A stretch of 64,000 bases of DNA from a virus: positions 26,209 through 90,208 of the IMG/VR virus record IMGVR_UViG_3300043823_000114; one strand, 5' to 3'. The notes under the pieces are model-generated. The model was not told the DNA's origin, made no database searches, and saw only the letters and a program-made list of their open reading frames with translations. The stretch's first letter is position 1. Each line of letters begins with the position of its first letter. Of this stretch, positions 14,401 through 45,757 are shown piece after piece. The translations under genes were made by a program, and so were the position numbers.

Positions 14401-14903
14401 GTATAACTGCCAGTAGCAGGGTTTCTAGTAACTGTAAACGTCTCTAGAATCGGCACTGTGCTAGCGAACACTGAAACTGCTTGTGGGCCGTTCTCTAACC
14501 AATAATACTGATTAAAGTTTACAAATTTATCAAAGTCAAAAAGACCATCATAGCTGTAACTTTCCCCACTGTACAGCCTACTTTGATTATCAGTCAAACC
14601 ACCGTAGTGGTTAATCTGATTCAATGTATCAATGTAACTAGCGTAAAACTGATTTTCCCCAGTTACTGGATTATCTATAACAACACTAGGCTCAAGCTGA
14701 TAGTTTTGTCGTTGCGCAGTGGGTTCAGGTACATAGTTGTCAGTACTCTTGAACGTTGGTGCAAATTTTCTACCCACATAGCCGTTGATATTACGCAAAT
14801 CCGGTTGCGTAACTAATTGATCTAAGGTTGCATTTAAGAACTTTTTATTTGCGTCGGTTCTATATGTTTCTGGTAAAAAGTTTGTTGTTTTAATTTGTGC
14901 CAT
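2427..14903 (-). CDS. Giant baseplate/tail structural protein, 4,158 aa (gp7 position)
   Basis: This single uninterrupted frame encodes a product of roughly 450 kDa. The start ATG follows the gp6 stop by one base, so it is coupled to gp6. In T4 the gene after gp6 is gp7, the wedge component, but that is about 1,030 aa. The N-terminus (MAQIKTTNFLPETYRTD; FDFDKFVNFNQYYWLENG) and residues near 3,290 (YYEDYINEVKPYRTSIREYK) are the most protein-like, conserved-looking parts. Residues about 2,190-2,700 hold FG-GAP/beta-propeller-like repeats (KFGASLDTSGNFLYIGNPG, QFGYSVAMNGNTMIVGAPGD). A glycine-rich repeat (GGGGTGANIQAIV, NPGSGYTSQPTIFINGTG) lies near 3,400. The rest is beta-rich N/T/S-rich sequence. 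It is probably a virion baseplate or peripheral tail protein combining a wedge-like start with adhesive modules. Equivalence to gp7 rests on position only. Confidence 0.7.
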   Translation of the reverse strand: MAQIKTTNFLPETYRTDANKKFLNATLDQLVTQPDLRNINGYVGRKFAPTFKSTDNYVPEPTAQRQNYQLEPSVVIDNPVTGENQFYASYIDTLNQINHYGGLTDNQSRLYSGESYSYDGLFDFDKFVNFNQYYWLENGPQAVSVFASTVPILETFTVTRNPATGSYTFSTASGVENPNIQLAYGGTYQFIVNQPGYSFWIQTNPGTSGTKNNQTSLSSRDVLGVTNNGADVGTITFNVPQPTAQDFYVRLTLAGTADLSTALSYTQVQGQRLSAIVAAGENGFDGVNAINQLNLKSLIFINTDLDDSKWTVNSQTVPVASRRNAWQISLSSDADPIVTLNPLLQAFTIGAQQRVFVRSGLTRAEYSYFLANDYLSLNLFNLMPDITAPLTALYYQDAAVSGMVGQFSMLFADQGVVDVENTILGSTGYKSPNGVVFTNGLAVTFDATATPAAYQGNTYYVEGVGTGIKLIDVSKFINPEPFAVNGLGTADYITINRASIDLNPWTRSNRWFHIDIINASAAYNGVTPVLDQSTRANRPIIEFEADIQLFNYGHVGVAPVDLIDFTNSDSRSTVELQPYGTTLDGVTLEQGMRVIFANDFDPTVRDKVFVVNVVDISSNLVINLAPATDENIYANNNLVIMSGPYKGLQYYYTGSSWVQGQQKNGINQSPLFDIFDDTGTSISTYTNSTFAGTQIFSYAIGTGVNDPVLGFPLSYRNFNQIGDIQFTNNFDSDTFNFTDGAGTAQSDVNINSVGWLQQNSDLTNSTIRNSWTTNTEQEKQFQIISGVYDGNNSYFQIDITNSTEATVPYFRVYRNSIQTTDWETITVGVLNYVHITDPDLTTGDQIDILIYNSSAVSQLGYYEVPKNLDFNSKNANFTTLTLGQLRNHLSTMVANSNQVVGSFPGSSNLRDLNIKPQGGSILQHASPALAVPIALVDPYFNFVDGLDLARREYSKFKNKILELSARTAGLDFTNIPVLLDTLLKTINAVKSSSFPWYYSDMVPYGDIKNTITYTVESAEITGYEISNIFSDTTLSNQAVLVYLNNAQLVKDQDYTFDANVAGITITTPLTIGDTITINEYSSTDGCYIPETPTKLGLYPKFAPEKYYDTTYITPTNVIQGHDGSITPAFGDYRDDLLLEFEKRIYNNIKVNPTNQVFSVYDFLPGKFRTTDYSNSEFTQLLTTSFLKWAGDNRIDYITNTTFVASNEFTYNYDRFVDVINGAPLPGNWRAIFKYYFDTDRPHTNPWEMIGFTTMPSWWETRYGPAPYTGGNMVLWDDMAAGIVWNNGNPYVDSRFVRTGLQTIIPVDATGVLLAPADFIVKSFNSRDASADWRIGDQGPVETAWRRSSDFPYAFQRAMAMAKPAFYFGTLVNVNDYYKNTELNQFICASTLQRITPASTAINGNISDTNTIQRSASYLNWMADNLRYLGINPNSYINLSIINVILSYKMAGFTDSSFIQVIAEQSSPTSTNNGVVIPNESYRILLQSSTPTNSVTYSAVIVEKTASGFTVSGYDTTTPYFTIIPSLVNGRSYSIPVLQDAAVVYQDYQKYKITIPYGYEFTTRQQVVDFLVSYQRYLQGVGFKFIDSDPDLGVQRDFLLSAKEFLTWAQQGWNASSILVLSPILNHTTLFTPLGVVDKIDNQPGSSCVLDTSYNFVKYSQMSVNRQNSATGNTCDITVNGGQTIALIKLDVVEYEHVMLFDNKDIFNDIIYVPELGNRQYRLKLVGKKTGSWTGAMNPPGFVFNNTTVDAWQQGKDYLLGAIVSYKSFNYTALQDIPAATTFDNTLWARLSSDELKTGLLPNFSYNAEKFNRFNDVDNPEVLGDFHLYSDSAIGFQPRDYLTNFGLDEVTQAKFYQGYIRQKGTMNAITAFTATGVNGTTSEIDVYEEWAMRVGEYGALDNNRSVDLILTEGTFNGDPVTLQLLPNNGSSISGIIGVQPSQLYKTEGSYTPSIYVNRDASSNYKNDVQTAGYVNINDITTTVFDINANLNDLSANIDQYGIASTVWTARDLTGNWNVFRINETDVNVTQVSYSVDNIGVITTSSPHNVAYGDIVVLSNFDVRVNAFYRVYGVVDAYNFSVVFQAQAADQIKQAIKIAGTGSLYRLQSVRLDSPTDLNSIAPLHDWLDNDKLWVDTDAETGGWVVYNKSTPWSGNTSIFNPSMKLDANSYISNVGFGTVSTISASGAFAAASSSLLNNGNVYAFVSNVTNNNTLTLVANIGQYSGGTKFGASLDTSGNFLYIGNPGNGSTQYGRVHIYEFNGNASFLWQQTLTSPSLSNVGDLFGSSISASADGLWLYVSAPNAGNVYVYQANTVGFYTSYSYANTISVGSSSSSQFGYNVKTTSTGNQVAISAPYQAVNGVTAAGTVYVFDRSIESFVANGTTYTTTYSNVNSQSRVTVNGNLATSGYTFTGTTLTFTTAPVIGSLINVETNKFNLLETITSPNPTSGGAFGTTTSISGNDADVYIASPGYSAPGYFSGIVYRYVNQGASYGSITGTTYNGNVSLGDSIRINGINVAFTAGNTITAAQNINSANIAGVTAIAQGYGALTITSNVTTPYQKLIIGPGNGNAMANLGLSVFSIAQTLKHPGTEDVAQYGSQILSSPNSETLVVSANGGSTENTTSFDTDTTTFDLNNSIFIDTIEGSGVVYIYGLVNSSLSGNVQDQYVLVQRLQNNSLSPHDQFGYSVAMNGNTMIVGAPGDSNSTAFDPSNTWIVYNATTGAPMPISNAGTFYTYNNFNGNIGWDIVNQETEKVDIDSISRMYLYNVNNSVISTNLDYIDPAKGKVLGAAQEDLDFITAYDPAVYNSVGSVDSIPNLAYSLDYHWGPDQTTKTWWNTGVLRYIDYEQGNLTYRANNWGMMFPGSQVQVCEWVSSDLPPSAYDGLGTPLYADNSAYVVETTINPTTKLPKSTYYYWVYGKNSLEQSSVHRNTVSTIQDIIENPQSQSIPYATVIQDDTVSLHGISNYLSGNSTVLHVDYDTIRNSHVIHSEYQLVQEGNPSSTIPTRIVEKIIDSLSGIDANGFAVPDASLSVQESIGLNNAPNQTLFVNRTTALQNWVEFVNGILIQYPVVEEFNINPLYASAPLPDYTTYDIQVATYEELGYIDTGVLAAGYTVLVLADETKSGIWTTYEWSGTTWVLTSEQSYYTPFYWSKTDWYDSTYDSTVLATYVVATAADISTLTLVAGDTVKVLNNGNGEFAVYRVNSDLTTNVVGIQNGTIQLSSTLYTSNVTGNEIRIIFNAIQNNIFIDTLAVYFNQMFFTLINYVLTEQPAVDWVFKTSFISILHKFKTLGQPASYSPDNQTYYEDYINEVKPYRTSIREYKLDYQGNDEYYGDTTDFDIPSTYIDAFGAYRSPNGSDPRDSTLLSTLPQYSQWYNNHTYGIGSVFVSNAGSGYVVTPSVTVVGGGGTGANIQAIVNFSTGGIESFEVINPGSGYTSQPTIFINGTGSGAFGYAKLVNHYQVDSLPTTQLATYSNVTVYVGNIITQQNTGAYGTVYTTITNSNVVTLVDTVGSFNTTDYIFSDAANLHSNVTSISSFTQFINNSYNTVRNFATTIAFDRITYNSNIIAWMPNITVANSSIVSYNGQAYQATANVYSSAILTTSGNIQANIGDYITQKNTTANARVLSVNSTKQTITVGNLTTNFVRRDGNILVNGTDSNVNPIAISNVFDYTKYNLLNANSFSNASDRITAYYQPTAGMPGNDLAQLMTGIEYPGVNVTGVTYEANTSVFSSNLIYTWANTRAIYSANVQIPTVTLDLTNSAVVYTGNVITQAVSGASGVVYNTSVGNLVTLVDVVGTFDNNATHWISANTANLGVTVASSSSFNQITTENLVDFTQYNYASGQPIVLVDTDTSQSYELNITEVDPWQIIVSGSLPTTSIGANLVLKYYDFNNPTYLDTTIQNTYTNSNVYSIIDGGAYYDTASSHAPEEFVPGVTYDNLNMTVYTGMNGLAANVGLPLSANLIAQGFTANIGYRIVQNMNGNASGTNTAIWPQYYGISESHITTLTANLNITDSNIHIANAQAISSPNVSKLIPGVVFINGEKIVFWGIDMVNNVLTNIRRAVDGTGAANVYTVGTQVVDTNINFLIPGGNLVHTTTWLNQSSGAPQDFVDNLSDLVTDNFGNILATTGANVGAVTDGLGLEGSNTVEAQYIKGLS

Positions 14904-18335: not shown

Positions 18336-18722
18336 TTAATATGGACCGTTTGTAGTCAGCGTTTGTGAGTTAGAATCGAACTGTAAACTCATGGAAGTCG
18401 CTTGATTTGTGGGTATATAAGTCAAATCTAGTTCGATTTGCATACCATAATCTTGCTCTGTTATCGTGATATTAGTAAGTGTGACTCTTGGGTCATAGTT
18501 AACAATAGTAGTAACGTCATCTATCACAAACTGTCTAGTCTGATCATCAAACGGTTCAAATAACAAACCCCAAATGATAGACCCGTAGTTTGGGTTCATC
18601 AATCTCTCACCTTTACGGGTACTAAAATGATTTAATAAATCTTGTTTAACCAAGTCAATGTCCGTAACACGAAATTTCTTGCTACGGTTGATTGTACTGA
18701 ATCCACGATATAGTATTGGCAT
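18336..18722 (-). CDS. 25: Baseplate wedge protein gp25, 128 aa
   Basis: Length matches T4 gp25 (132 aa). The motif run KGERLMNPNYGSIIWGLLFE followed by PFDDQTRQFVIDD is the conserved gp25/GPW family core, including the E-R-x-x-x-x-P segment that contacts the sheath and wedge. gp25 joins the baseplate wedge to the first sheath ring and is conserved across contractile machines. The late octamer lies only 7 nt before the ATG, so the transcript is probably leaderless or nearly so, and no ribosome-binding site is visible between octamer and start. The gene lies between gp5 and gp6 in the minus-strand baseplate block. Confidence 0.95.
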   Translation of the reverse strand: MPILYRGFSTINRSKKFRVTDIDLVKQDLLNHFSTRKGERLMNPNYGSIIWGLLFEPFDDQTRQFVIDDVTTIVNYDPRVTLTNITITEQDYGMQIELDLTYIPTNQATSMSLQFDSNSQTLTTNGPY

Positions 18723-18729
18723 AGTCTAG

Positions 18730-18737
18730 TATTTATT
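18730..18737 (-). promoter_or_regulatory. Late promoter octamer AATAAATA abutting gp25
   Basis: AATAAATA on the minus strand overlaps the gp5 stop codon and ends 7 nt before the gp25 ATG. With T4 late spacing (octamer at about -13 to -6) transcription would begin within about 2 nt of the start codon. Confidence 0.6.
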
Positions 18738-30942: not shown

Positions 30943-31785
30943 TTATCCGAAAAAACTGCTCTGATCAAATGTGAGATTAGTTTTGAACTCTTTCTGGCAT
31001 TCTTCATTTGCACAGGTCAATGTCAGTGGTGGAATTTTATAGAAATTCGTTAGTTCTTCCATAGAGTCTTTGACACTAGAGTATACAGCACGACTACAGC
31101 TTTCTAGAAACTCTGCAATCATTTCTCTATCTTTTACTTCAATACCATCTTCGGTAGTAACGCTATAAATCCCATCAATAACTAGATTTAGATTCAACTC
31201 ACGGATCTTGTTAAAACTAAAATTGAAGTTTGCCAGTTTCTGCTCTTCGGTTAGTTCTTCATTTTTAATAATGTTTTGAATCAGCTTCTCTTGTTCAAAG
31301 TTAATCATATTGGCATTGTTCATATTCTTATACATTTGTGGTCTGAACTTAAAAGTTAGTCCGTCAAAGTTGTATGATTTAGAATAATCTGCTTTACCAA
31401 CACTGTCTAGTACAGCATTTAAGTCTACGCTGTATTCGTCGGACTGATTGCAATGTGGGCAAGTACTATTGAAATCCATCGCTTTACCATAACTTGCCAA
31501 TCTCATTGCAATGAATATTGGGTCTAGGTCCACTGCTGGGATTTCCCATGGATCTTTGATTGCTGGACAGCAACTCTTAATCACATCTGCAATAGCTTGC
31601 CCACTGAGTAATGCGTCTGGAGTTTTTAGTGATAGTTCATCTCGGACTGTCATTGGGTACACTGGAATAGTACCGTTTGCAGCCAGTTCTAATCCGTTTT
31701 CGCTGTAAAAGCGCCCTTTACTGGGTAAGCTGAGATAAAGTGCAGGCTGTCTGAAATGTTTTGCCAATGGATTAGCGGTAACCAT
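30943..31785 (-). CDS. 26: Baseplate hub protein gp26-like, 280 aa
   Basis: The start NPLAKHFRQPALYLSLPSKG, RFYSENG and the following VYPMTVRDELSLKTPDALLS are typical of T4-like gp26, a baseplate hub subunit (208 aa in T4, longer here). Two Cys pairs, CPHC (about residue 108) and CANEEC (about 259), could bind a metal; such pairs are common in this family in aquatic phages. The gene forms a two-gene minus-strand island, with its own late promoter, inside an otherwise plus-strand region and away from the other baseplate genes. Confidence 0.78.
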   Translation of the reverse strand: MVTANPLAKHFRQPALYLSLPSKGRFYSENGLELAANGTIPVYPMTVRDELSLKTPDALLSGQAIADVIKSCCPAIKDPWEIPAVDLDPIFIAMRLASYGKAMDFNSTCPHCNQSDEYSVDLNAVLDSVGKADYSKSYNFDGLTFKFRPQMYKNMNNANMINFEQEKLIQNIIKNEELTEEQKLANFNFSFNKIRELNLNLVIDGIYSVTTEDGIEVKDREMIAEFLESCSRAVYSSVKDSMEELTNFYKIPPLTLTCANEECQKEFKTNLTFDQSSFFG

Positions 31786-31797
31786 AGTTTGAACTCC

Positions 31798-31805
31798 AAT
31801 AAATA
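31798..31805 (+). promoter_or_regulatory. Late promoter octamer AATAAATA (tape-measure unit)
   Basis: AATAAATA on the plus strand, 28 nt before the ATG at 31834. It faces the TATAAATA octamer of the gp26 unit, which lies 11 bp further right on the opposite strand. Confidence 0.6.
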
Positions 31806-31816
31806 TATGTATTGAA

Positions 31817-31824
31817 TATTTATA
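31817..31824 (-). promoter_or_regulatory. Late promoter octamer TATAAATA (gp26 unit)
   Basis: A perfect T4 late consensus on the minus strand, about 31 nt before the gp26 ATG. It overlaps the transcript region of the plus-strand promoter at 31798. Confidence 0.65.
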
Positions 31825-31833
31825 GGGTAGAAT

Positions 31834-34149
31834 ATGGCCAGTCCAGTAAAAATTAACATCCCCGGTGTGGGTCTCATAGAAGCTACTAATGCTGCCTCGG
31901 AAGACACTCTACTCAAAATTCTTGAAGCTACTAAGAAAAGCGAATCTACTAAGAAAAAAGAAGAAAAAGAAGCCGAGAAACAGCGCAAGCAGATTGATGA
32001 AACTACTGATAGTTTAAAAGGTTGGCAAAAAGGTCTAATAGGGAATTCTTCCAAAGCTAGCAAATTGATGGACGAGCATGTGGCCAGTGGCAATGCCGCA
32101 AATGCCAGTGTCAATAAACTTGCCGCCGGAGCATCAATGGCCGCCGGTGCGATTGGTCAAGAACTATTGCAAATGATTGGTTCTTTGGCTCAGAGTGCCG
32201 CTAGTCTGACATCTGCATTCATGACCAGTTATGATCAAATGGCTGAAAACCCAATCAGCGCTGGGCTAACAGTGTTACAAACAGAAGTTGATGCAACTGC
32301 CACAATGTACAAAACTGCCGCTACAGCATTGCTAACTGGTATAGGTGCAATTTTTGGTCCAATTGGTATGTTAGTGGGGGCTGGCATTGGGGAATTGGTC
32401 GGCACTCTGATTGGTGGTGCCGCAGAAATACAAAAGCAGTATAATCAGAAAATGGCTGACGAGATGCAGAAATCAGTCAAAGTGCAAGGCGAATACACCA
32501 AGATGGGTGCAAGTTTTGCTGGTGGTATGATGGAGATGCGAAATGTAGCCAATGACGCTGGCATAAGCATGTCCTTACTCAGCAAAGCCGCATCTAAGTC
32601 TGCCGCAGATTTAACTGCTACTGGCCTGTCACACGGTGAAGCCATTAAAGTCATGGCAGACGGTATGAAAGGTCTTGCTAAGACAACTGGTAAGAGTGGT
32701 GCATCACTACGAGATGAAATGTTATCATTGGGCTATAGTTACGAAGAACAGGGCGAAGTCATGGCTTCGTATATGGCTCAGCAACGCAGTGCGGGTATAA
32801 ATTTAAAAAATCTTGCCCCAGAAGAACTTGCTCGTGGTGCCCGTGAATACGCCACAAACTTAAAAGTCATCAGTGACATCACCGGGGAAGATGCTAAAAA
32901 GCTAATGGAAAAAGCCAAAGCTGAGTCGTTGCAGGCTGGAGTATTTTCCGAAGTTATGAGAAAAGGTGGTCCAGAAGCTGTTAAGAAACTACAGAATCAA
33001 CTAGCCACAATGCCAGAAGGTTTGAAGAAAGCATACATAGAGAAATTAAGTCTAGGCAAAGTAGTCGATGCCGCGTCAAACATCTACATGAATGCTAATG
33101 AAAAAGCCGCAGATCAATTAACTAACATGAGTGATGACTTGTACAATGCTGGTGTTAGTGCCGCAGACGCAACAAGAAGGACTGGCGAGTATAGTGAACA
33201 AACTGGTAAGTATGCATTAGAACATGCAGATAAAATGGCTGAAATTGGTAAAGCAAGTATTGCGGGTGTGGTTGGTCCAGCAAAAGATACTTCCGATCTT
33301 GCTAACAAGATAACCATGGATGCTATAAAGCGACAAGAAGGTGCGACAGACGCCAGTGTTGACGCCGCTAAAAAGCAAGCCGAACTTGCAGGTAAAGCTG
33401 AAAGTGTGGAAGCAGGATTTGCAAAAGTAACCAGTGCAACGCAAGACTTTGCCAAAAATATGGAGCAATTGACTGGTAAAGAGCTTGGTACATACGCTAA
33501 GAATTTAGCAGATGGATTCAGCACTGCCAAAGATGCGATACAAGATTTTGCTAAAACAATAGATAGTGTGCATAGCAGTATTGCCAGTAAAGCACCAAAT
33601 GCCAGAGAAATAGGTTCAGCAGTTAAATCTGGTGGTTCTTCTTTTCTAGACTTTTTAGGGAAAGTTGGGTCTGCCTACTCTGAGTCTCCTGGGCTTGCTG
33701 AAGGTGGTTGGGCTAACGGAGATCCAGCTGGATTTTTGCAAAAACTTCATGGGACAGAGCTAGTTATCCCCACTAGTGGGGGGATGCTAGACACTAGCAG
33801 TAAGGGATTCTCAGAGTTAATAAAAGCTATGACTGGTACTGATTTGCCCAGTGGTAATATATCAGATACTATTAGTAAAGGTTTTTCAGAGCTAGCTAAA
33901 TCTGGGGATGATCTAGCTTCTTCTACTTTAAATAATGATCAATTACTGAAAAAAATAGACGATCTAATATCAGTTATTGGTGAAAAGTTTAATAGTACAA
34001 GCACTAACAGTGCTGGTGATATTATTACTAATGCTTTCAATGGTATGACTGATATCCTAACTAAACAATTGGGGTTCCACGAAGAAATTGCAGATCATGC
34101 CAAAGACAACAAAGATTTACTAGACAAACTTCTTAAAGTGTCCATGTAA
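31834..34149 (+). CDS. Tape-measure-like tail protein (gp29-type role), 771 aa
   Basis: The protein begins with a short globular segment (VKINIPGVGLIEATNAASED), then a highly charged helix (residues about 30-60), long hydrophobic alanine/glycine-rich helices (about 90-195, including LLTGIGAIFGPIGMLVGAGI), and long helical, coiled-coil-like sequence to about 600. Near residue 622 a motif LAEGGWANGDPAGFLQKLHG, TELVIPTSGG resembles the C-terminal EGG...GTE-VIP element of many tape-measure proteins. The final 100 residues are helical again. In T4 tail length is set by gp29 (590 aa), and this is the best candidate for that role here. If fully helical in the tail, 771 residues would span roughly 115 nm. 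The start ATG follows a late octamer. Confidence 0.68.
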   Translation: MASPVKINIPGVGLIEATNAASEDTLLKILEATKKSESTKKKEEKEAEKQRKQIDETTDSLKGWQKGLIGNSSKASKLMDEHVASGNAANASVNKLAAGASMAAGAIGQELLQMIGSLAQSAASLTSAFMTSYDQMAENPISAGLTVLQTEVDATATMYKTAATALLTGIGAIFGPIGMLVGAGIGELVGTLIGGAAEIQKQYNQKMADEMQKSVKVQGEYTKMGASFAGGMMEMRNVANDAGISMSLLSKAASKSAADLTATGLSHGEAIKVMADGMKGLAKTTGKSGASLRDEMLSLGYSYEEQGEVMASYMAQQRSAGINLKNLAPEELARGAREYATNLKVISDITGEDAKKLMEKAKAESLQAGVFSEVMRKGGPEAVKKLQNQLATMPEGLKKAYIEKLSLGKVVDAASNIYMNANEKAADQLTNMSDDLYNAGVSAADATRRTGEYSEQTGKYALEHADKMAEIGKASIAGVVGPAKDTSDLANKITMDAIKRQEGATDASVDAAKKQAELAGKAESVEAGFAKVTSATQDFAKNMEQLTGKELGTYAKNLADGFSTAKDAIQDFAKTIDSVHSSIASKAPNAREIGSAVKSGGSSFLDFLGKVGSAYSESPGLAEGGWANGDPAGFLQKLHGTELVIPTSGGMLDTSSKGFSELIKAMTGTDLPSGNISDTISKGFSELAKSGDDLASSTLNNDQLLKKIDDLISVIGEKFNSTSTNSAGDIITNAFNGMTDILTKQLGFHEEIADHAKDNKDLLDKLLKVSM

Positions 34150-35909: not shown

Positions 35910-35917
35910 TATAAATA
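35910..35917 (+). promoter_or_regulatory. Late promoter octamer TATAAATA abutting the 80-aa core gene
   Basis: A perfect T4 late consensus that ends 5 nt before the ATG at 35923. With T4 spacing the first transcribed base would be the A of the start codon. Confidence 0.65.
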
Positions 35918-35922
35918 ACACT

Positions 35923-36165
35923 ATGTTTGTATTAGATTTATTTGAATCACCTGAATCTGCTAAGCCAGGTTATCAGAGTGAACAAGATGACAACTCAGTC
36001 ATGAAGTTAAGCGACCTACGCAAAACTCGTTTAACACTAGCACATCTAAATCGTCTACGGATGGCGAATGATGTGCGTAAATTTGAATTCGAAACCAAGA
36101 TGAAAGATATCCAAAGTCAGTACGGTGCAAGTGCTGAAGCTGCCGCGGGGCCAGGTGGAATCTAA
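35923..36165 (+). CDS. Small prohead core-type protein, 80 aa
   Basis: A short helical protein (SVMKLSDLRKTRLTLAHLNR, MANDVRKFEFETKMKDIQSQ) with a flexible end (SAEAAAGPGGI). It lies between gp20 and gp21 where T4 carries gp67 and gp68, small components of the prohead core. Its length equals that of T4 gp67, but the acidic character of gp67 is found in the next gene instead, so I leave the symbol blank. It is probably a core or scaffold protein cleaved by gp21 during maturation. The start is fixed by the TATAAATA octamer, which leaves no room for a leader. Confidence 0.65.
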   Translation: MFVLDLFESPESAKPGYQSEQDDNSVMKLSDLRKTRLTLAHLNRLRMANDVRKFEFETKMKDIQSQYGASAEAAAGPGGI

Positions 36166-37558: not shown

Positions 37559-38200
37559 ATGGCTTTGTACCTAAAAGAGACGCTTACTTTTAATCATGCA
37601 GGGATTCAAATTCTCGAAGAGGATTCCCACGATGGTAAAGGTAAGAGTCTTAAAATGAAAGGGATATTCATCGAGGGAGGTGTGAAGAACGCTAACCAAC
37701 GTGTTTATCCTGTTCAGGAAATCTCAAAGGCCGTTAATACAATCAATGAACAGATCAAGAGTGGTTATTCAGTTCTTGGTGAGTTAGATCACCCGGATGA
37801 TTTAAAAATCAATCTTGATCGTGTCACACACATGATTGAAAACATGTGGATGGACGGTCCCTGTGGTTACGGACAACTAAAGATTTTACCAACTCCGAGT
37901 GGCAAGATTGTGGAAGCAATGTTGACAAGCGGGGTTAAGTTAGGCGTTAGCAGTCGTGGAAGCGGCAATGTTAACGAAAGCAGTGGTCATGTTAGTGATT
38001 TTGAAATCATTACTGTGGACATTGTGGCACAACCAAGCGCACCTCATGCTTATCCTAAAGCAATTTATGAGAGCTTGATGAATATGCGTGGTGGTGCACA
38101 GTTATTTGAGATGGCCCGTGAAGCATCTCAAGATCAAAAAGTACAGAAGTACGTTGAACAAGGCGTGTTGCGCCTTATCAAAGACCTGAAAATAAAATAA
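37559..38200 (+). CDS. 21: Prohead core protease gp21, 213 aa
   Basis: Length matches T4 gp21 (212 aa). The protein has the U9/herpes-assemblin-like serine protease layout: catalytic His in VLGELDHPDD (about residue 79), catalytic Ser in GVKLGVSSRGSG (about 131) and a third-residue region in DIVAQPSAP (about 155). It cleaves scaffold, core and capsid proteins after prohead assembly, which commits the head to DNA packaging. It is placed between the core proteins and gp22 as in T4 and has an AGGGA ribosome site 8 nt before the ATG. Confidence 0.95.
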   Translation: MALYLKETLTFNHAGIQILEEDSHDGKGKSLKMKGIFIEGGVKNANQRVYPVQEISKAVNTINEQIKSGYSVLGELDHPDDLKINLDRVTHMIENMWMDGPCGYGQLKILPTPSGKIVEAMLTSGVKLGVSSRGSGNVNESSGHVSDFEIITVDIVAQPSAPHAYPKAIYESLMNMRGGAQLFEMAREASQDQKVQKYVEQGVLRLIKDLKIK

Positions 38201-38213
38201 GGAGTAGGATCCA

Positions 38214-39323
38214 ATGTTAGACGCTATCAAACCATTGTTGGAGTCCGGTATCATTAACGAAGGTACTCAGCAAGCAATCAGCGAAGCATTCGAGGCTCGT
38301 ATCAACGAAGCCAAAGAAACTGTTCGTGCTGAATTGCGTGAGGAATTCGCACAACGCTACCAACACGACAAGAAAGTTATGGTTGAAGCTCTAGACAAAA
38401 TGGTGACTGAATCTTTAACAGCAGAAATCTCTGAATTCCAAACTGAGACACAAAAGCTAGCTGAAGACCGTGCAAAATTCAATGTTCGTATGGTTGAAGC
38501 TACAAACAAGTTCGACAATTTCTTAGTTACTAAACTAGCTGAAGAAATCCAAGAACTTCGTGCTGATCGCCAACAATATCAAAATAGCATTGCTAAACTT
38601 GAGAAGTTTGTGGTTAAGGCTCTTGCAGAAGAAATTCAAGAATTCGAAGCAGACAAGAAAGCCGTTGTTGAGACAAAGGTTCAACTTGTTGCTGGTGCTA
38701 AAGCAAAACTTGCAGAACTTCAATCTGCATTTGTTGCTCGTAGCGCAGAAATGGTTAAAGAATCTGTTACTGCTAAACTAGAGTCTGAGATGACTCAACT
38801 TAAAGAAGACATCCAACTTGCTCGTGAGAACATGTTTGGTCGTCGCTTATTCGAAGCATTTGCTAGTGAATTCGCTGTTACTCACTTAAATGAGAACAAA
38901 GAAATTGCTAAGATGCGTGAAATCATCAATACACAATCTAGTGTTATCGCTGAAGCACGCAAAGTAGCTACAGAAAAAGCAACTTTAGTTGAATCTAAAG
39001 AGAGAGAAATTCGTATTATCAAGGAATCTACAGATCGTAAGGTAAAACTTGCTGAAATGTTGAAACCTCTAAACAAAGAGAAAGGCGCTGTTATGAGCGA
39101 ACTTCTCGAATCAGTGCAGACCGACAAGTTACAGTCCGCATTTGATAAGTATCTTCCTGCTGTATTGGGCGGAACTACTGCTAAAGCACCCGCAAAGGTA
39201 GCTTTGACAGAAAGTAAAGTCGAAGTAACAGGAGATAAATCTGCTAAACCAACTCAAGTGCAAGAAGTTGCTGAAACAGCAACAAATGTATTTGATCTAA
39301 AGCGTCTAGCAGGGCTAAAGTGA
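38214..39323 (+). CDS. 22: Prohead scaffold protein gp22, 369 aa
   Basis: Almost wholly helical and rich in Glu, Lys, Ala and Leu, with heptad-like coiled-coil sequence from about residue 25 to 290 and many segments such as LAEEIQELRADRQQYQNSIA. The C-terminal part ends EVAETATNVFDLKRLAGLK. T4 gp22 is 269 aa and forms the main scaffold core, degraded by gp21. The gene lies directly between gp21 and gp23, with AAGGAG 10 nt before the start. The identification rests on context and composition, both strong. Confidence 0.9.
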   Translation: MLDAIKPLLESGIINEGTQQAISEAFEARINEAKETVRAELREEFAQRYQHDKKVMVEALDKMVTESLTAEISEFQTETQKLAEDRAKFNVRMVEATNKFDNFLVTKLAEEIQELRADRQQYQNSIAKLEKFVVKALAEEIQEFEADKKAVVETKVQLVAGAKAKLAELQSAFVARSAEMVKESVTAKLESEMTQLKEDIQLARENMFGRRLFEAFASEFAVTHLNENKEIAKMREIINTQSSVIAEARKVATEKATLVESKEREIRIIKESTDRKVKLAEMLKPLNKEKGAVMSELLESVQTDKLQSAFDKYLPAVLGGTTAKAPAKVALTESKVEVTGDKSAKPTQVQEVAETATNVFDLKRLAGLK

Positions 39324-39352
39324 CTTAACCCTAAAAGGAAAAAGGAAATAAA

Positions 39353-40525
39353 ATGACACAAGCATTATTAGAAAGCCGTTGGGGCGAGACAAAAGACGCC
39401 CTGTTGGAGGGCTTACAAGGTTCTAAGCGTACATCAATGGGTGTAATCTTAGAAAACACTAAAAAGTATCTTGCAGAAAATGCAACAGCTGGCGCAACTA
39501 CAGCAGGTAACGTAGCAACACTTAACCGTGTTATTCTACCAGTTATCCGTCGTGTTATGCCAACAGTTATCGCTAACGAAATCATTGGTGTTCAACCAAT
39601 GACTGGTCCTGTTAGTCAGATTCACACTCTACGTGTTCGTTACACAGACGGTGTTACTGGTACTAACGGTGCTACTGGTACTGTTCCAGGCGACGAGGCA
39701 TTGTCTCCATTCAAAATTGCTACTGCATATTCTGGTACTAGTTCTGGATATGCTACAAGTACAGCAACACTTGAAGGTGTACCTGGAAATCGTATCAACG
39801 TTCAAATCTTGAAACAAGTTGTTGAAGCTAAAACTCGCAAGTTGTCAGCAAGATGGACATTCGAAGCCGCTCAAGATGCACAATCTATGCACGGTTTGGA
39901 TATCGAAGCAGAAATCATGGCTGCTCTAGCACAAGAGATCACAGTTGAGATCGATCAAGAAATTATCGGTTCTTTATCTGCTCTAGCCGCTACAGACTAC
40001 GCATATGACCAATCTGCTGTATCTGGTACAGCTACATTCGTTGGTGACGAACACGCCGCATTGGCAGTTCTTATCAATCGTTCAGCTAACTTGATCGCAC
40101 AACGTACTCGTCGTGGCGCAGGTAACTGGGCTATTGTTTCTCCGGCTGCATTGACAGTTCTACAATCTGCTACTACTTCAGCTTTTGCTCGTACTACAGA
40201 AGGAACTTTCGAAGCTCCTACAAACACAAAGTATGTTGGTACATTGAACGGCGCAATGCGCATTTATGTAAACTCATACGCAAACGATTCAACTCCAGTT
40301 CTAGTTGGATATAAAGGTACTTCAGAAGCTGATGCTCCAGCATTCTATTGCCCATATATTCCATTGATGTCTTCTGGTGTTGTTCTTGACCCTAACACAT
40401 TCGAACCAGTCGTGGGCTTCATGACTCGTTACGGATATGTTGAGTTAACAAACACAGCGTCTTCTCTAGGTAACGCAGGCGACTACGTTTCTGAGATCAG
40501 CATCGCTAATCTTTCATTCCAGTAA
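39353..40525 (+). CDS. 23: Major capsid protein gp23, 390 aa
   Basis: The segment TLNRVILPVIRRVMPTVIAN, EIIGVQPMTGPVSQIHTLRV is the hallmark of T4-type major capsid proteins (HK97 fold), and the A-domain end (GFMTRYGYVELTNTASSLGN, YVSEISI) also fits. T4 gp23 is 521 aa and typical marine versions are around 470; this one is clearly shorter, apparently lacking most of the surface insertion between the conserved parts. The N-terminal region (about 60 residues, ending near AENAT) is expected to be removed by gp21. A strong AAGGAAAAAGGAA region precedes the ATG and a perfect terminator follows, in line with very high late expression. Confidence 0.95.
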   Translation: MTQALLESRWGETKDALLEGLQGSKRTSMGVILENTKKYLAENATAGATTAGNVATLNRVILPVIRRVMPTVIANEIIGVQPMTGPVSQIHTLRVRYTDGVTGTNGATGTVPGDEALSPFKIATAYSGTSSGYATSTATLEGVPGNRINVQILKQVVEAKTRKLSARWTFEAAQDAQSMHGLDIEAEIMAALAQEITVEIDQEIIGSLSALAATDYAYDQSAVSGTATFVGDEHAALAVLINRSANLIAQRTRRGAGNWAIVSPAALTVLQSATTSAFARTTEGTFEAPTNTKYVGTLNGAMRIYVNSYANDSTPVLVGYKGTSEADAPAFYCPYIPLMSSGVVLDPNTFEPVVGFMTRYGYVELTNTASSLGNAGDYVSEISIANLSFQ

Positions 40526-40573
40526 TCTTCTGTTCGGTAGATGCGACTTCGGTCTCATTATGGAAGGAGCAAG

Positions 40574-40598
40574 AAAGCACTCGCAAGAGTGCTTTTTT
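40574..40598 (+). terminator. Strong factor-independent terminator after gp23
   Basis: A 9-bp stem (AAAGCACTC/GAGTGCTTT) with a GCAA tetraloop is followed by further T residues, six in total. It ends the head operon. Confidence 0.92.
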
Positions 40599-40617
40599 GT
40601 TGGGTGCATTAACTTCA

Positions 40618-40625
40618 AATAAATA
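40618..40625 (+). promoter_or_regulatory. Late promoter octamer AATAAATA abutting the desaturase gene
   Basis: AATAAATA ends 7 nt before the desaturase ATG at 40633, right after the gp23 terminator. No ribosome site lies between. The predicted transcript is leaderless or has a leader of about 2 nt. Confidence 0.6.
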
Positions 40626-40632
40626 TTTGATC

Positions 40633-41487
40633 ATGAAGATTTTTGCATATTCTAAAAAAGACGCATATTTGATTTTGTACACTATTGTTATGTGTGTATT
40701 CCCATATTATATGGCTTTATATACTGACCCTAGTATTTGGTGGTTGTTGATAGTACCATTTCATGCGTATTCTATTGCGAACTTGATGAATACTAGTCTT
40801 CATCATCAAAGTCACTGGCCAATGTTTGTTAATAGAACATTCAACAAATATTACGAATTATTCATGAGTATGCACTGTGGATTTACGCATGCCGGGTGGA
40901 AATACGCTCACTTATTACATCACAAGTACGTGAATGACAAACCTATTGATGGACAAACTAGAGACCCAGTATCAGTGTTCAAAGGGGGGAAAAATGGCGA
41001 ACCGATGAATTTCTGGATTTACAGTGTTGGTAAAGCCGTGAATGATCTTTTGGTTATTTTTAAAAATATACCATTCGCAAAACCCAATTTAAAGAAGTAT
41101 GCAGATCGGTATAAGCATGAACAGTGGGCTAGAAAGCTGTTCTTCATCACAATATTTTTAATAAACCCATTATACTGTCTCTCGCTATTTTTTGTATATT
41201 TTGTTGCGTTTGTTATGAATCGTGCAATCAGTTACGGTGAACATTGGACTGTGCTTGATCGTCGTGGGGACACTACTCAAGATAGTATCGGGTGCTATGA
41301 CTACTGGGTCAATCTCATAGGATTTGGTGCAGGACATCATCAAGAACATCATCATAGTCCCGGGACACATTGGACAAACTATGGTCGCGTAACAAAGGAC
41401 TTGCATCCTGACAGGAAAATCGTTCACGAATTACACATTATGAACAATCCTTTTTGGGAACACTTCAAGCTCTTATTCAAGCGATAA
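40633..41487 (+). CDS. Membrane fatty-acid desaturase-like protein, 284 aa
   Basis: All three histidine boxes of membrane di-iron desaturases are present: HHQSH (about residues 57-61), HLLHH (about 93-97) and HQEHH within GAGHHQEHHH (about 234-241), plus an extra GEHW (about 202). Hydrophobic segments at about 12-30, 32-50 and 165-195 fit a four-helix membrane protein. The family inserts double bonds into acyl chains (or hydroxylates related substrates) using oxygen and an electron donor; the substrate cannot be told here. An upstream TTG start lies within the terminator and is rejected; the ATG at 40633 is used. It is a stand-alone gene with its own late-type promoter between the capsid and the next virion gene, so it is a likely auxiliary metabolic gene expressed late. 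Confidence 0.85.
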   Translation: MKIFAYSKKDAYLILYTIVMCVFPYYMALYTDPSIWWLLIVPFHAYSIANLMNTSLHHQSHWPMFVNRTFNKYYELFMSMHCGFTHAGWKYAHLLHHKYVNDKPIDGQTRDPVSVFKGGKNGEPMNFWIYSVGKAVNDLLVIFKNIPFAKPNLKKYADRYKHEQWARKLFFITIFLINPLYCLSLFFVYFVAFVMNRAISYGEHWTVLDRRGDTTQDSIGCYDYWVNLIGFGAGHHQEHHHSPGTHWTNYGRVTKDLHPDRKIVHELHIMNNPFWEHFKLLFKR

Positions 41488-41506
41488 GCTAAATTTCCTT
41501 ATTCGA

Positions 41507-41514
41507 AATAAATA
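41507..41514 (+). promoter_or_regulatory. Late promoter octamer AATAAATA with hairpin leader
   Basis: AATAAATA lies 66 nt before the ATG at 41581. The leader could fold: CTAGAC/GTCTAG (41515-41520 with 41550-41555) around CCACA/TGTGG (41532-41536 with 41543-41547), ahead of a strong AAGGAG ribosome site at about 41567. Confidence 0.6.
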
Positions 41515-41580
41515 CTAGACTCGTCAGAGTTCCACAAAGTCATGTGGCGGTCTAGAACACCGTACTAAGGAGAAACAAAA

Positions 41581-42318
41581 ATGGCAAAACTAAAAATTAC
41601 TGCTCAAAGCAGTATCACAAATGTAAACTATCCCGGTCCAATCATTGACGCTTATGTTCAACCGCAATTAGTCGGTGGCTCTCACACTGGTGGTACTGGC
41701 GGATTGACAAGTTTGACAGGTCTACAAATTCAACCACAAGTATACATTAAAACTGGTAGTTCATTACCAGGTAGCATTACTGCACAAAAAGGTGCTCACA
41801 AATTCCGCGTTACTGACGGTACATTAACTGGTGACTGTGTTTTAACAAACAGCCCAAATTTGACTGCTGGTCAAATGAATATTTTAATCAACTTGAATAC
41901 TGCGGCAGGGAATGTTGCGGCAGCTAACGTAGTTGGTGGTGCAACAAGTACTACAGTTACATATGACACTCGCACAGCAGTAACTGGTCCTCTAGCAAAT
42001 GCCCGTGTTGGTGATTACTTAATTTGGACTAGCCCAAGTGCTAACATTAGTGGTGTAGCACAAGTGACAGGTTCAAGTGGTGGAACATTTACTATTTCTA
42101 CTTCTGGTAACATTGCCGCGGCAACTGGTGTTACATTGACTACAAGCACATACGCAAGTCGTATTGACAACAAGTATGTTCGTGACTTTTACAGTGACGG
42201 TCAACAAGACAGTACATATGGTACAGTAACTTATTACACAAGTGGTTATAACCCAACAAAATGGCGTTATCACTTGGCTGCTCCAACAAGCACATTTGTT
42301 CAAGTACAATCAGCATAA
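41581..42318 (+). CDS. Probable abundant virion protein of unknown function, 245 aa
   Basis: A single-gene unit with a late promoter, structured leader, strong ribosome site (AAGGAGAAACAAAAATG) and its own terminator, the layout of a highly expressed structural gene. The sequence is beta-rich and contains VYIKTGSSLPGSITAQKGAH, KFRVTDGTLTGDCVLTN, a central Ala/Gly/Thr-rich part, and a conserved-looking end RIDNKYVRDFYSDG, TPTKWRYHL-like. I associate KTGSSLPGSITAQKGAHKFR with virion proteins of T4-like aquatic phages but do not know its function. Head decoration or a neck/tail component are both possible. A direct enzyme role is unlikely. Confidence 0.7.
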   Translation: MAKLKITAQSSITNVNYPGPIIDAYVQPQLVGGSHTGGTGGLTSLTGLQIQPQVYIKTGSSLPGSITAQKGAHKFRVTDGTLTGDCVLTNSPNLTAGQMNILINLNTAAGNVAAANVVGGATSTTVTYDTRTAVTGPLANARVGDYLIWTSPSANISGVAQVTGSSGGTFTISTSGNIAAATGVTLTTSTYASRIDNKYVRDFYSDGQQDSTYGTVTYYTSGYNPTKWRYHLAAPTSTFVQVQSA

Positions 42319-42356
42319 TAACAACTATGCTATAGTGAGATAGCAACGAAAAAATT

Positions 42357-42379
42357 TGGCCCCTAGTGGGCCATTTTTT
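42357..42379 (+). terminator. Factor-independent terminator
   Basis: TGGCCC-CTAGT-GGGCCA stem followed by six T residues, about 40 nt after the stop of the 245-aa gene. Confidence 0.9.
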
Positions 42380-42402
42380 ATGGTTTTGTATTATCTAGAC
42401 AA

Positions 42403-42410
42403 GCTAAATA
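42403..42410 (+). promoter_or_regulatory. Late promoter octamer GCTAAATA
   Basis: GCTAAATA, 25 nt before the ATG at 42436, directly after the preceding terminator. The same CTAAATA variant is found before the 2,343-aa fibre gene. Confidence 0.55.
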
Positions 42411-42435
42411 GTATATAAACAGGGTATAAAGTAGA

Positions 42436-43005
42436 ATGTCTACCTACAAACGAATAAGCGGTGATTATACAATTCAGAGTGTAAACACTGGCGATAGAAT
42501 TATTTTGAATAGTGGTAATGTGTATATTGAAGGAAACTTAAATGTTTCTGGAAATACGCAAACTTTCACTTCCAATAATAGCTCTATTACAAATAACATC
42601 ATTACTCTTAATGCCGGGGCAACGAGTCCTAACCCGTTTGGTGCACAGATTATCGTTAATCGTGGGACTGGGCAATCAAACGCCGCTATTACATGGAATG
42701 AAACAGTTGGTGCTTGGCAAGTCAGTGAAGTTGTAAATGGCAGTTATTACACTGCTAACATTGCTACATCTATTGGGACTCAAAACTTCATTTCCAATGT
42801 GTCACAAGATACAACCCCTATGCTAGGTGGTAACTTAAACATTGGTAGCTACTCAATCTATAGTAATGTCAGCGGATCACAAATGTATAGTACAACTGCT
42901 CCTGGTGGCGGTGGTACTGGAATAACAGTAACAAATTCTCGATATGCAAACGTCGAACTTATGAGTAAGACTAAGAGCATTGTTTATAGTATTATTTTTG
43001 GATAA
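42436..43005 (+). CDS. Fibre/collar-type structural protein, 189 aa
   Basis: First gene of the fibre cluster. The beginning (YKRISGDYTIQSVNTGDRII, NVYIEGNLNVSGNTQTFTSN) has the beta-strand pattern of fibre shafts. The middle INNIITLNAG-like run and IIVNRGTGQSNAAITWNETV, GAWQVSEV match a motif seen again near the start of the 2,343-aa protein (GILVNRNLSPL...WVWSEADQAFEA), where a fibre sequence is compared with an expected display state. No enzyme motif is seen. Probable small virion fibre or attachment protein; function inferred from the cluster. Confidence 0.65.
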   Translation: MSTYKRISGDYTIQSVNTGDRIILNSGNVYIEGNLNVSGNTQTFTSNNSSITNNIITLNAGATSPNPFGAQIIVNRGTGQSNAAITWNETVGAWQVSEVVNGSYYTANIATSIGTQNFISNVSQDTTPMLGGNLNIGSYSIYSNVSGSQMYSTTAPGGGGTGITVTNSRYANVELMSKTKSIVYSIIFG

Positions 43006-43014
43006 GGATATAAG

Positions 43015-43326
43015 ATGGCGATTCTAAACGCAAACGTAACAACAGTAGCAAGTCCGATCTATGTTAGTTCGGGTAACAATGCTATTACTACAGTTCATTT
43101 ATGTAACTACAGCGGCAGTAGTGTGCAAGCCAATATATATCTTGCTCCTAGCACTGGCAACGTTGCTAATGGCACAACGGTTATATATGGTAATGTGACT
43201 ATCAGCGCATACAATACATTGATTATCTATCAAGAGAAGTTTGTATTGGCTAACGGTGACACAATCTACGCTAACGTAAGTGCAAACAATAGTGTGACTG
43301 GTACAATAAGTTCGATTGGATTCTAA
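43015..43326 (+). CDS. Small beta-sandwich-type virion protein, 103 aa
   Basis: Composed of alternating hydrophobic strands (NAITTVHLCNYSGSSVQANI, NVTISAYNTLIIYQEKFVLA, DTIYANVSANNSVTGTI). It is similar in length and layout to the 109-aa protein at 57,992, which also has an I-C/V-N-x(n)-A pattern followed by a strand pair and ends in a short V-x-V/I strand. Both may be the same small fold used as fibre adaptor or tip. It starts 9 nt after the previous stop with AAGGA upstream, in an operon with the next gene. Confidence 0.6.
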   Translation: MAILNANVTTVASPIYVSSGNNAITTVHLCNYSGSSVQANIYLAPSTGNVANGTTVIYGNVTISAYNTLIIYQEKFVLANGDTIYANVSANNSVTGTISSIGF

Positions 43327-43328
43327 AC

Positions 43329-43757
43329 ATGGCAAGATTTCTTAAAAATCCTGACATAGCAAACGGAGCACAAGCGGCAAGATTGCCAATTGTTCCTAGT
43401 AGCGCATACGGTGATGTCCCAACCAATGGCCTGATTAGATTTAATCAAGCCACTAGTAGAATTGAATTCTTCTATAACAATGCTTGGAGTCAGATTGCTA
43501 AGATCGGTAGTGTTCAACTTGTGGTTGATACTCTTGGTCCTGGTGATGGCATCACAGTTAACTTTACTATGAGTCAGCAAGAAACAGACCCAACAGCTAT
43601 CGCGGTGTTTGTTGGCGGTGTTTATCAACAACCAACAACTCATTACGGTGTCAGTGGTTACGGCTTAAGTTTCACTACTGCTCCTCCATTGGGTACAATC
43701 ACTCCGACTACTATTATTGTGATACACAATATTAACAGCACTAACGTGCCAGCATAA
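43329..43757 (+). CDS. Fibre-associated protein with shared IRFN/GVYQQP module, 142 aa
   Basis: Residues about 33-55 (NGLIRFNQATSRIEFFYNNA, W) and 70-125 (GDGITVNFTMSQQE, VFVGGVYQQPTTHYGVSGYG, LSFTTAPP) form a module that also occurs at the C-terminal parts of the 519-aa and 2,343-aa proteins, where it reads FRYNS...IEYCNGSSW...VSINGTMQTP and IRYST...LEFYNGTAW...VSINGVMQIP. Here the module stands nearly alone. It is probably a virion fibre domain that mediates trimerisation or attachment. It begins 3 nt after the stop of the 103-aa gene. Confidence 0.62.
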   Translation: MARFLKNPDIANGAQAARLPIVPSSAYGDVPTNGLIRFNQATSRIEFFYNNAWSQIAKIGSVQLVVDTLGPGDGITVNFTMSQQETDPTAIAVFVGGVYQQPTTHYGVSGYGLSFTTAPPLGTITPTTIIVIHNINSTNVPA

Positions 43758-43765
43758 GGAACAGT

Positions 43766-45757
43766 ATGTCACTGGGACGCATCAACGGGCCAATGCTAAC
43801 ACCCAACTTGGAGCGCCAAGGTATCAACATCGCCTTGGATGCAAACTTGACATATTGGGATGTTAATAACCGTTATGTTGGTATAAGAACAACTACTCCG
43901 AACTATCCACTACAAGTTTCTGGTAATGCTTACATAGGTAATGTGTATCTTTTAGGTAACACTATTACAACTGATTCTGGTGTGCTGGGGCTGGGTGCTA
44001 CTAGTAATATTAGCATCACTGGTGGTAGTAAAGATTATGTTTTAACTACCGATGGTAGTGGTAATATTTCTTGGGCTAATGTTTCTAGTATTGTAAGCGT
44101 TACTGGTTTGACTGGTAATATTATTACGCTGGGTTCAAATACATCACAGGCATTGATTAGTAATGCTGTTTCACTTACATCTAGCACAGATATCACAGAC
44201 GCAATCGCACAGTTAAACTATGTTCTTGGTAAGCTAGTACCGCAAAGTCCTCCGAATTTTCCGAACAGTACAACTATCTCAATCAGTACTGGTACTACGA
44301 CCGGACTTATGACTAATTTTACTCAGACTGATAATTCGGGTTGGGGTAACCTAAGTGTCACCGCTGGCACAAGTGTCAGTGCAGTTCGTACAGCAGTATT
44401 CCAAACTTCCGCAGTCACAAATGTAGGTCCAGGCAGTACAGGCACTGTGACTGCATATGTCAACGGAGTTCCAAACGGTAACGTCACATTGACTGGTAGC
44501 AATGCTAACACAACTAATGGCAACATTTATGTCTATAATGTAGAAGATTATCATAATGTGGTTAGCAGTGTAACGGCAGGATTCTGGACAGTGTTCTCAA
44601 CTTATGCTGTGGCTACGGCAGGTGTGCCGGCAGGTTGGAACAGAGTACATATCTATGACAGTGGTGCGGGCACACAGACAAACGATGCCACTTGGTACTA
44701 TGACTCTAGTAGTACAGGAGCTCCTGTATTCAGTAATACCAGTGTGACATTAACCAGTAACAGTACAACTTATTCTAGCACTATACCACATTTTAACAGC
44801 AGTACAGTGTTTAGATTAAAAGGTAATGTGTCTAATTTGAGCGGAGACTTATATGCAAGTTCACCATTCAGTACCAGTGCAGGTGGTGCGTTCGCTGCAC
44901 CAACAACACCCTCATACTCAAGTTTTGTACCCACTGTGTCAACCCCGTTGAGTCGTAACCTAACAGCCACTCAGTATTTTGAGACTAACACTGGCATTAC
45001 ATCTGGATTTGGTTCTAGTGCGACTGGCCCGTCAGTATCATTCACTAGCCCATATTCAGTTGGATCTTCTGGCTCAATCAATCCAGGAGTAACAGTCTTG
45101 TACAAAACTGGCACAGGCAATCAAATTGAAGAAACTGCTATCACTAATAGCTACAGTGGTGCCAGTGCCGCTTATAGAATAGTCAATCCAGATGCGGGCA
45201 CGGCTGCTGATAATCCTGCCTATACTGGCAGCGAAGCTACATTTAATAGTCAAACTAGTACGCTATATGCCACAGATGCCACAGTGGTTGCCGCAGTATT
45301 AAAGTATGATGTAACGAATTATTCAACTGGATATTTACCAGTTGGTCCTAACTTAAGTAGTGGTAGAAGCTCAAGTCAATACTTCACATTCAAGTGGACT
45401 AAGGCTGCTGTAAGTAAGTTTAATATCATTTATAGTGGAACAATAGCTGGTCTATGGGTAGCATTGCCCGGAGTCACAGATGCTAGCTATGCTAGTCCCA
45501 CAAACGGTTGGTTGAATATGGCAACAGCTTATGCGGGTTCAGGGGTTCCTGGAACTGGTACTGGGGGCAATGGTAGTACTGGGTGTAGTACAGGTGGAGC
45601 CGCAGTATTGAATTCAGTAGTAAGTGGTGGAAGTTATACTTGTACTTTTGGAACAGTGAGTTCAACATCATCGACGAACAATGAAATTTATATCCGTGTT
45701 AAACTAACAAGTGGTCAAAGTTTAACAGCATTAAGCATAGGGGCTCCGACTAACTAA
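43766..45757 (+). CDS. Tail fibre/appendage protein, 663 aa
   Basis: The N-terminus (MSLGRINGPMLTPNLERQGI, NIALDANLTYWDVNNRYVGI) and the following GIRTTTPNYPLQVSGNAYIG motif are typical of phage fibre shaft beginnings. Residues about 115-160 include a predicted helix (DITDAIAQLNYVLGKLVP). The middle and C-terminal parts are beta-rich, with a conserved-looking block PSVSFTSPYSVGSSGSINPG, TVLYKTGTGNQIEETAI and a C-terminal Gly/Ser/Cys segment (GTGTGGNGSTGCSTGGAA). It is preceded by AGGAACAG and coupled to the next gene by TAATG. Role in host binding or collar is inferred from context. Confidence 0.68.
   Translation: MSLGRINGPMLTPNLERQGINIALDANLTYWDVNNRYVGIRTTTPNYPLQVSGNAYIGNVYLLGNTITTDSGVLGLGATSNISITGGSKDYVLTTDGSGNISWANVSSIVSVTGLTGNIITLGSNTSQALISNAVSLTSSTDITDAIAQLNYVLGKLVPQSPPNFPNSTTISISTGTTTGLMTNFTQTDNSGWGNLSVTAGTSVSAVRTAVFQTSAVTNVGPGSTGTVTAYVNGVPNGNVTLTGSNANTTNGNIYVYNVEDYHNVVSSVTAGFWTVFSTYAVATAGVPAGWNRVHIYDSGAGTQTNDATWYYDSSSTGAPVFSNTSVTLTSNSTTYSSTIPHFNSSTVFRLKGNVSNLSGDLYASSPFSTSAGGAFAAPTTPSYSSFVPTVSTPLSRNLTATQYFETNTGITSGFGSSATGPSVSFTSPYSVGSSGSINPGVTVLYKTGTGNQIEETAITNSYSGASAAYRIVNPDAGTAADNPAYTGSEATFNSQTSTLYATDATVVAAVLKYDVTNYSTGYLPVGPNLSSGRSSSQYFTFKWTKAAVSKFNIIYSGTIAGLWVALPGVTDASYASPTNGWLNMATAYAGSGVPGTGTGGNGSTGCSTGGAAVLNSVVSGGSYTCTFGTVSSTSSTNNEIYIRVKLTSGQSLTALSIGAPTN

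Follow-up and report, generated by a model that had tools for sequence, protein, structure and literature searches.

The 64,000-nt stretch of viral DNA analysed here (26209-90208 in a virus record of 90,208 bases; hereafter, the window) encodes a membrane enzyme of the fatty-acid desaturase family directly behind the gene for the gp23-like major capsid protein. On balance, we lean towards the view that this is a membrane di-iron enzyme, most likely an acyl desaturase, which is expressed late from a practically leaderless mRNA and whose gene is an old resident of an exchangeable cargo slot in the capsid region.

Locus layout and enzyme family

The coordinates of the locus are collected in Table 1. 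In-frame TTG codons could lengthen the desaturase-family open reading frame (ORF) to 40597; the ATG at 40633 was taken as the start because the N-terminus M-K-I-F-A-x-x-K-x-D is common, in the alignment, to the window enzyme and its relatives, bacterial ones included. The initial annotation of this DNA began its interval at 40574, where the terminator stem, and not the gene, starts. With such small coordinate corrections, its description of the gene, the histidine boxes, the octamer 7 nt before the ATG and the place behind the gp23 terminator was borne out. It also set the gene between two structural units. This holds upstream, where gp23 matches PF07068 and phrog_138; downstream, the product of gene 41581-42318 had no match in Pfam or PHROG, so the label "structural" is presumptive there. 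An Rfam scan of window positions 38000-44000 gave no match.

Table 1. Features of the desaturase-family locus in the window
Feature	Coordinates	Strand	Remarks
gp23-like major capsid protein, 390 aa	39353..40525	+	PF07068 (E = 4.6e-96); phrog_138; upstream neighbour of the desaturase-family gene
Intrinsic-terminator-like hairpin (40574-40595) with T-run to 40598	40574..40598	+	Fold of 40526-40632, z -4.0; goes with gp23
Late-promoter-type octamer AATAAATA	40618..40625	+	7 nt 5' of the ATG; no Shine-Dalgarno sequence; same layout in homologues
Membrane fatty-acid-desaturase-family (PF00487) di-iron enzyme, 284 aa	40633..41487	+	Pfam, alignments, structure model, fold search
Next late octamer AATAAATA	41507..41514	+	66-nt leader with AAGGAG, then gene 41581-42318
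245-aa protein, downstream neighbour	41581..42318	+	tblastn matches in some gp23 relatives; relatives recur behind gp23

Several other features of the record were observed. A CTAGAAC element and hairpin-like repeats recur in the leader 41515-41580 and in the matching region of loci L171, L173, L175, L177 and L190. The minus strand of the window holds a single ORF of 4,158 aa (2427-14903), very large for a phage gene. Outside the window, further left on the record (L089, 3287-14932), lies a run of minus-strand genes for SGNH-like proteins, a carbamoyltransferase and several radical-SAM proteins (Pfam matches in 3/3 scanned).

The window enzyme matches PF00487 with an E-value of 1.9e-18 (67.6 bits; cut-off, 29.7). 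The histidine boxes H57xxxH61, H93xxHH97 and H236xxHH240 make up, together with H204, nine histidines that are invariant in 32 aligned rows, so that the early observation of three intact boxes extends to the complete set. The structure model (pLDDT 90.6, pTM 0.89) is of the helical membrane type. The nearest solved fold according to VIA-align is the alkane monooxygenase AlkB (8f6t; Z 17.6, rmsd 3.8, 248 aligned residues), followed by 8sbb (Z 16.9), 8xks_K (16.6), 8xqw_M (14.9) and SCD1 (7.6), while among viral structure models the only good matches were giant-virus desaturase-type proteins. The profile match over the cut-off, the HxxxH/HxxHH/HxxHH pattern and the helical model are shared with the PF00487 superfamily, from which the window enzyme differs in belonging to a phage clade of its own that no PHROG or NCBIfam model matches. 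The fold is that of membrane di-iron oxidases, and the assignment to the fatty-acid desaturase superfamily is firm.

Within this superfamily, we infer desaturation rather than hydroxylation, with an acyl-lipid substrate. In our assessment, it is rather unlikely that the protein is instead a hydroxylase or another oxidase with this membrane di-iron fold, whose substrates would be alkyl chains, acyl chains or a modified lipid of the envelope. Such an enzyme would agree with the AlkB-type fold of the model, the two AlkB alignments (8f6t and 8sbb) covering 246-248 residues at Z-scores far over that of SCD1, with the position of AlkB as the best match of the family profile among PDB sequences (E = 6.7e-4), and with the HxxxH form of the first box; AlkB, which is longer than the window enzyme, also uses nine histidines. 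However, a common fold does not establish function, identity to AlkB is only 15%, and the annotated relatives are named desaturases, by annotation only. The nearest-fold argument carries little weight because few membrane desaturases have solved structures: SCD1 was the sole solved desaturase named in the fold searches, and the absence of others is no evidence. The initial annotation had named clustering with non-desaturase di-iron enzymes as a refuting condition; with AlkB as the nearest solved fold, this condition may apply.

Phage homologues and the slot behind the capsid gene

Neither the window protein (E up to 10) nor the L175 homologue (E up to 1) had a tblastn match in 50,697 phage records, and neither single-sequence scans of viral and genome contigs for the desaturase nor a search of viral contigs with the first alignment (A1) gave a match. 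Relatives surfaced through tblastn in plasmids, an alignment scan of genomes, and the gp23 loci. The latter provided L104, and a profile (A2) built from the window protein and L104 then found phage homologues at 20 loci, which encode 14 distinct proteins with 36-53% identity to the window protein (L104 and L175 are one contig). When the family profile was run over 15 larger whole phage records, 14 had no match, and the matching record, G007, had been picked as a known carrier.

The homologue-bearing loci belong to one uncultured group of T4-like jumbo phages; the window gp23 is closest to those of 121Q/GAP32/PA5oct-type jumbo phages (62-68% identity among the best 40 of 2484 records). In 19 of the 20 loci, gp23 precedes the enzyme gene in the same orientation, and in the remaining one (L184) the contig begins 0.7 kb before the gene. 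The enzyme is encoded by the next gene after gp23 in 12 loci and lies 1.2-2.7 kb off in seven. Among 80 viral contigs selected for the closest gp23 relatives, 63 of which extend at least 1 kb behind gp23, a homologue was present at a single locus (L104), and the other 79 had no tblastn match. The synteny comparison proposed at the outset thus shows that the gene is not present in all relatives.

The terminator follows a different pattern. The segment 40526-40632 folds with a stability equalled by 0 of 200 shuffles, although a simple terminator scan did not list the hairpin at 40574-40598. Seventy-four of the 80 gp23 relatives have at least 120 nt behind gp23, and in 71 of these a hairpin with a T-run is found there, whatever gene follows; the terminator therefore belongs to gp23. 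The proposal that it forms part of an enzyme cassette is contradicted by this distribution, and the simple scan listed no terminator behind the enzyme gene on the plus strand between 41487 and 41581.

Gene content behind gp23 differs among the relatives. A Pfam scan of 20 chosen representatives of the slot (19 from the loci of gp23 relatives and one from L186) matched a SegE-type GIY-YIG protein with NUMOD3, an HNH protein with NUMOD3, a radical-SAM protein with a B12 domain, TPR proteins with glycosyltransferase 9 (twice) and a class I chitinase; a GDSL hydrolase and an MTES_1575 nuclease fell below the cut-off, and 12 of the 20 were without a match. The same place is occupied in PA5oct by a Hef-like endonuclease and in T4 by segD, which sits between genes 23 and 24 (PMC2988022). 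The slot behind the major capsid gene is thus shared, but it holds a homing endonuclease in those phages and a metabolic enzyme in the window phage. Homing endonucleases could have helped to turn this slot into an exchange site.

The phylogenetic comparison with bacteria, also suggested by the initial annotation, set the phage proteins apart: a maximum-likelihood tree of phage and bacterial proteins unites the 15 phage members with 100/100 support, and the stem of their clade measures 1.69 changes per site. The nearest bacterial branch (L010, support 86/50) is not trusted, because the out-group rows have very long branches. Bacterial relatives are about 25-31% identical and, among the matches listed, come from rhizobia, Caulobacter, Pseudomonas, Methylophilus, Bdellovibrionota and Verrucomicrobia. 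Ratios of dN/dS of approximately 0.03, 0.23 and 0.17 in three close phage pairs indicate purifying selection; no ratio was obtained for some more distant pairs, whose dS was saturated. Since the phage clade stands on a long stem, the bacteria are distant and the close pairs are constrained, the idea that the gene was recently captured from a known host is not supported. Judged from these comparisons, the enzyme gene is an old cargo of the variable slot behind the capsid gene, long resident in the phage group.

The gene had been taken for a recently inserted moron on account of its terminator-promoter-gene layout. A recently captured, still host-like gene carried as such a cassette we consider highly improbable. 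The predicted promoter-like octamer of its own and the 79/80 gp23 relatives without a match are features expected of a moron; however, the terminator goes with gp23, a GC3 of 0.38 lies within the range of the window genes, the best bacterial identity is about 31% among the matches listed, and 14 distinct homologues of the phage-only clade occupy the same neighbourhood. A singleton moron, as a separate candidate, was ruled out by the 20 homologue loci, 19 of them with gp23 upstream.

A search for tested functions of the bacterial relatives found none, and their gene context (rhizobial clusters, the Methylophilus tandem pair, Bdellovibrionota) gave no hint of a substrate. Methylophilus has two desaturases of the same family in tandem (L084, 5101-6837). 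The rhizobial plasmid relatives (L002 and L003, ~4.6-12.6 kb) sit in a conserved cluster with genes for arginase, a class III aminotransferase, EamA transporters, a hydrolase, GNAT and cyclopropane-fatty-acid synthase-like proteins, which is perhaps an unknown lipid pathway.

Octamer spacing and a putative leaderless class of late genes

The window holds 13 copies of the heptamer ATAAATA, against a chance expectation of 21. All 12 copies that could be judged lie just upstream of a gene on the same strand, and the remaining one stands 118 nt short of the end of the record; TATAAATA-like octamers, the hallmark of T4-type late promoters, therefore precede same-strand genes in the window. Nine of the 14 distinct homologues have a TAAATA upstream of the enzyme gene with a gap of 4-5 nt to the ATG; in L178 the gap is 21 nt, and the motif was found in none of the other four. 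No Shine-Dalgarno (SD) sequence precedes the gene in any of the 14 homologues or in the window, where the octamer-ATG gap is 7 nt, not 5. The T4 late octamer spans -13 to -6 (PMC1524935), and a gap of 5 nt would therefore place +1 on the A of the ATG. If T4 late spacing applies, transcription of the window gene would begin at the AUG or no more than ~2 nt away from it. Late control of this membrane-lipid enzyme, as originally suggested, thus gains support from the sequences and is plausible.

Three further sites were noted in the window. At 35910-35923, TATAAATA lies 5 nt before an 80-aa gene (35923) that adjoins the portal gene, and at 18722-18737, AATAAATA lies 7 nt before the minus-strand gene 18336-18722, both in the leaderless-type layout seen at the desaturase. 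Between the divergent genes 30943-31785 (minus) and 31834-34149 (plus), two late octamers face each other at 31798-31824, so that the promoters would overlap.

The spacing was examined across the group with gene calls defined as the longest non-overlapping ORFs starting at the first ATG within the first 30%; 952 genes were reduced to 788 by dropping those with less than 45 nt upstream and those with duplicate first 40 residues. SD sequences are present in 397 of the 788 genes overall. A gap of 5 nt was found in 40 genes, 37 of them without an SD sequence and 34 with a T preceding the ATG, and a gap of 4 nt in 11, none with an SD sequence. The resulting 51 genes compare with a mean of 3.2 and a maximum of 8 in 200 simulations, and they are spread over many unrelated families. 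Independently of gene calls, an ATG stands exactly 5 nt after 79 of 678 TAAATA sites, 4 nt after 20 and 6 nt after 6. With one 374-kb relative added, the 5-nt count is 93 of 921 sites, and ORFs of at least 60 aa are opened by 88 of the 93 ATGs at 5 nt and by 28 of the 32 at 4 nt, as against 8 of the 50 at 0-3 nt. Taken by itself, the 374-kb contig has 485 genes, of which 25 show a gap of 4-7 nt, none with an SD sequence, and 41 a gap of 15-30 nt. In T4 and four cultured relatives, by contrast, 0 of 169 genes have a 4-5-nt gap, and the gene-call-free count is 5 of 211 sites at 5 nt with a hump at 25-30 nt.

Among the controls, the heptamer TAAATAA also peaked, being the same motif shifted by one base, and the other five scrambled heptamers did not. 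In the gene-call-free counts, the entries for the 7-base core are shifted by one position. The control core TAATAA had a small excess, with 29 ATGs at 5 nt against approximately 5-26 elsewhere, which can stem from the same motif or from in-frame repeats. Two explanations of the 5-nt class were rejected: an initiator motif that is not a start codon, in view of the high proportion of ATGs at 5 and 4 nt that open ORFs, and chance in an AT-rich genome, in view of the simulated maximum and the 79/678 sites.

These counts also bear on a different account of the enzyme gene, in which transcripts from upstream cross a leaky terminator and cover it, the octamer beside the ATG being a coincidence. Terminators can leak, and 5 of the 14 homologues are without the motif at 4-8 nt. 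However, mRNA from upstream would bring no SD sequence (0/14), and coincidence agrees poorly with both the excess of 4-5-nt gaps over the simulations and the ORFs opened at 5 nt. We regard readthrough as improbable.

The short-gap members, named partly from Pfam and otherwise by eye, include desaturases, HNH and GIY-YIG endonucleases, TPR-glycosyltransferases and the 80-aa gene beside the portal gene; some portal genes have the octamer 7 nt before the ATG, and the window gp23 keeps its SD sequence. The TATAAATA-type octamer upstream of late genes is shared with the T4 late promoter system (gp55; PMC1524935 and PMC2988020), but the sharp 5-nt class was found in the uncultured group and not in T4 and its four cultured jumbo relatives. 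These patterns suggest a leaderless class of late genes in this group. Two classes of late genes can probably be distinguished, one with a leader and an SD sequence and another in which a gp55-type octamer is fused to the AUG (+1 = A), the latter serving SD-free late products of low copy number; the copy-number part is conjecture. The leaderless class would span the desaturase, other cargo of the capsid slot, homing endonucleases and the small gene beside the portal.

Proposed mechanism and implications

We propose that RNA polymerase with the phage late sigma factor would start from the octamer within ~2 nt of the AUG and would produce a practically leaderless enzyme mRNA, separate from the capsid message. 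Made late in infection, the enzyme would become embedded in the inner membrane of the host, where host electron carriers would support it; no Fer2 ferredoxin was found in the six virus records searched, some of them fragments. Most likely, double bonds would be put into acyl chains during virion assembly, presumably to the benefit of the phage.

Phage desaturases have been considered in the context of membrane fluidity. Cyanophage lipid desaturases (Roitman, 2018) are reportedly phage-encoded and proposed to change host membrane fluidity. For desaturases of Arctic cryopeg and sea-ice phages, a change in host membrane fluidity for infection or release has been proposed, and the sea-ice enzymes were described as SCD1-like, probably delta-9 or delta-6 (PMC7300359). 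The window enzyme shares with these proteins the desaturase family and the phage location, but its nearest solved fold is AlkB, and it had no tblastn match in the 50,697 phage records. No relevant paper on a desaturase in a jumbo phage was found in open-licence PMC. In the window clade, the desaturase-family gene is long-lived and stably associated with the capsid neighbourhood, and its expression is probably late.

For the giant phage AR9, UTRs of 26-491 nt were reported in a paper that calls phage transcripts often leaderless (PMC5312081). The review of T4 late transcription does not use the word "leaderless" in the part available (PMC2988020), and no leaderless late mRNA in T4-type phages was recognised in the titles and abstract starts of the open-licence PMC papers listed. 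As far as open-licence PMC shows, no leaderless class has been described for the T4-type late system, well studied as it is, and this layout is the part of the present results most deserving of specialist attention. It predicts where late transcripts would start, and it would predict translation of these mRNAs at a time when phage mRNA crowds the host ribosomes.
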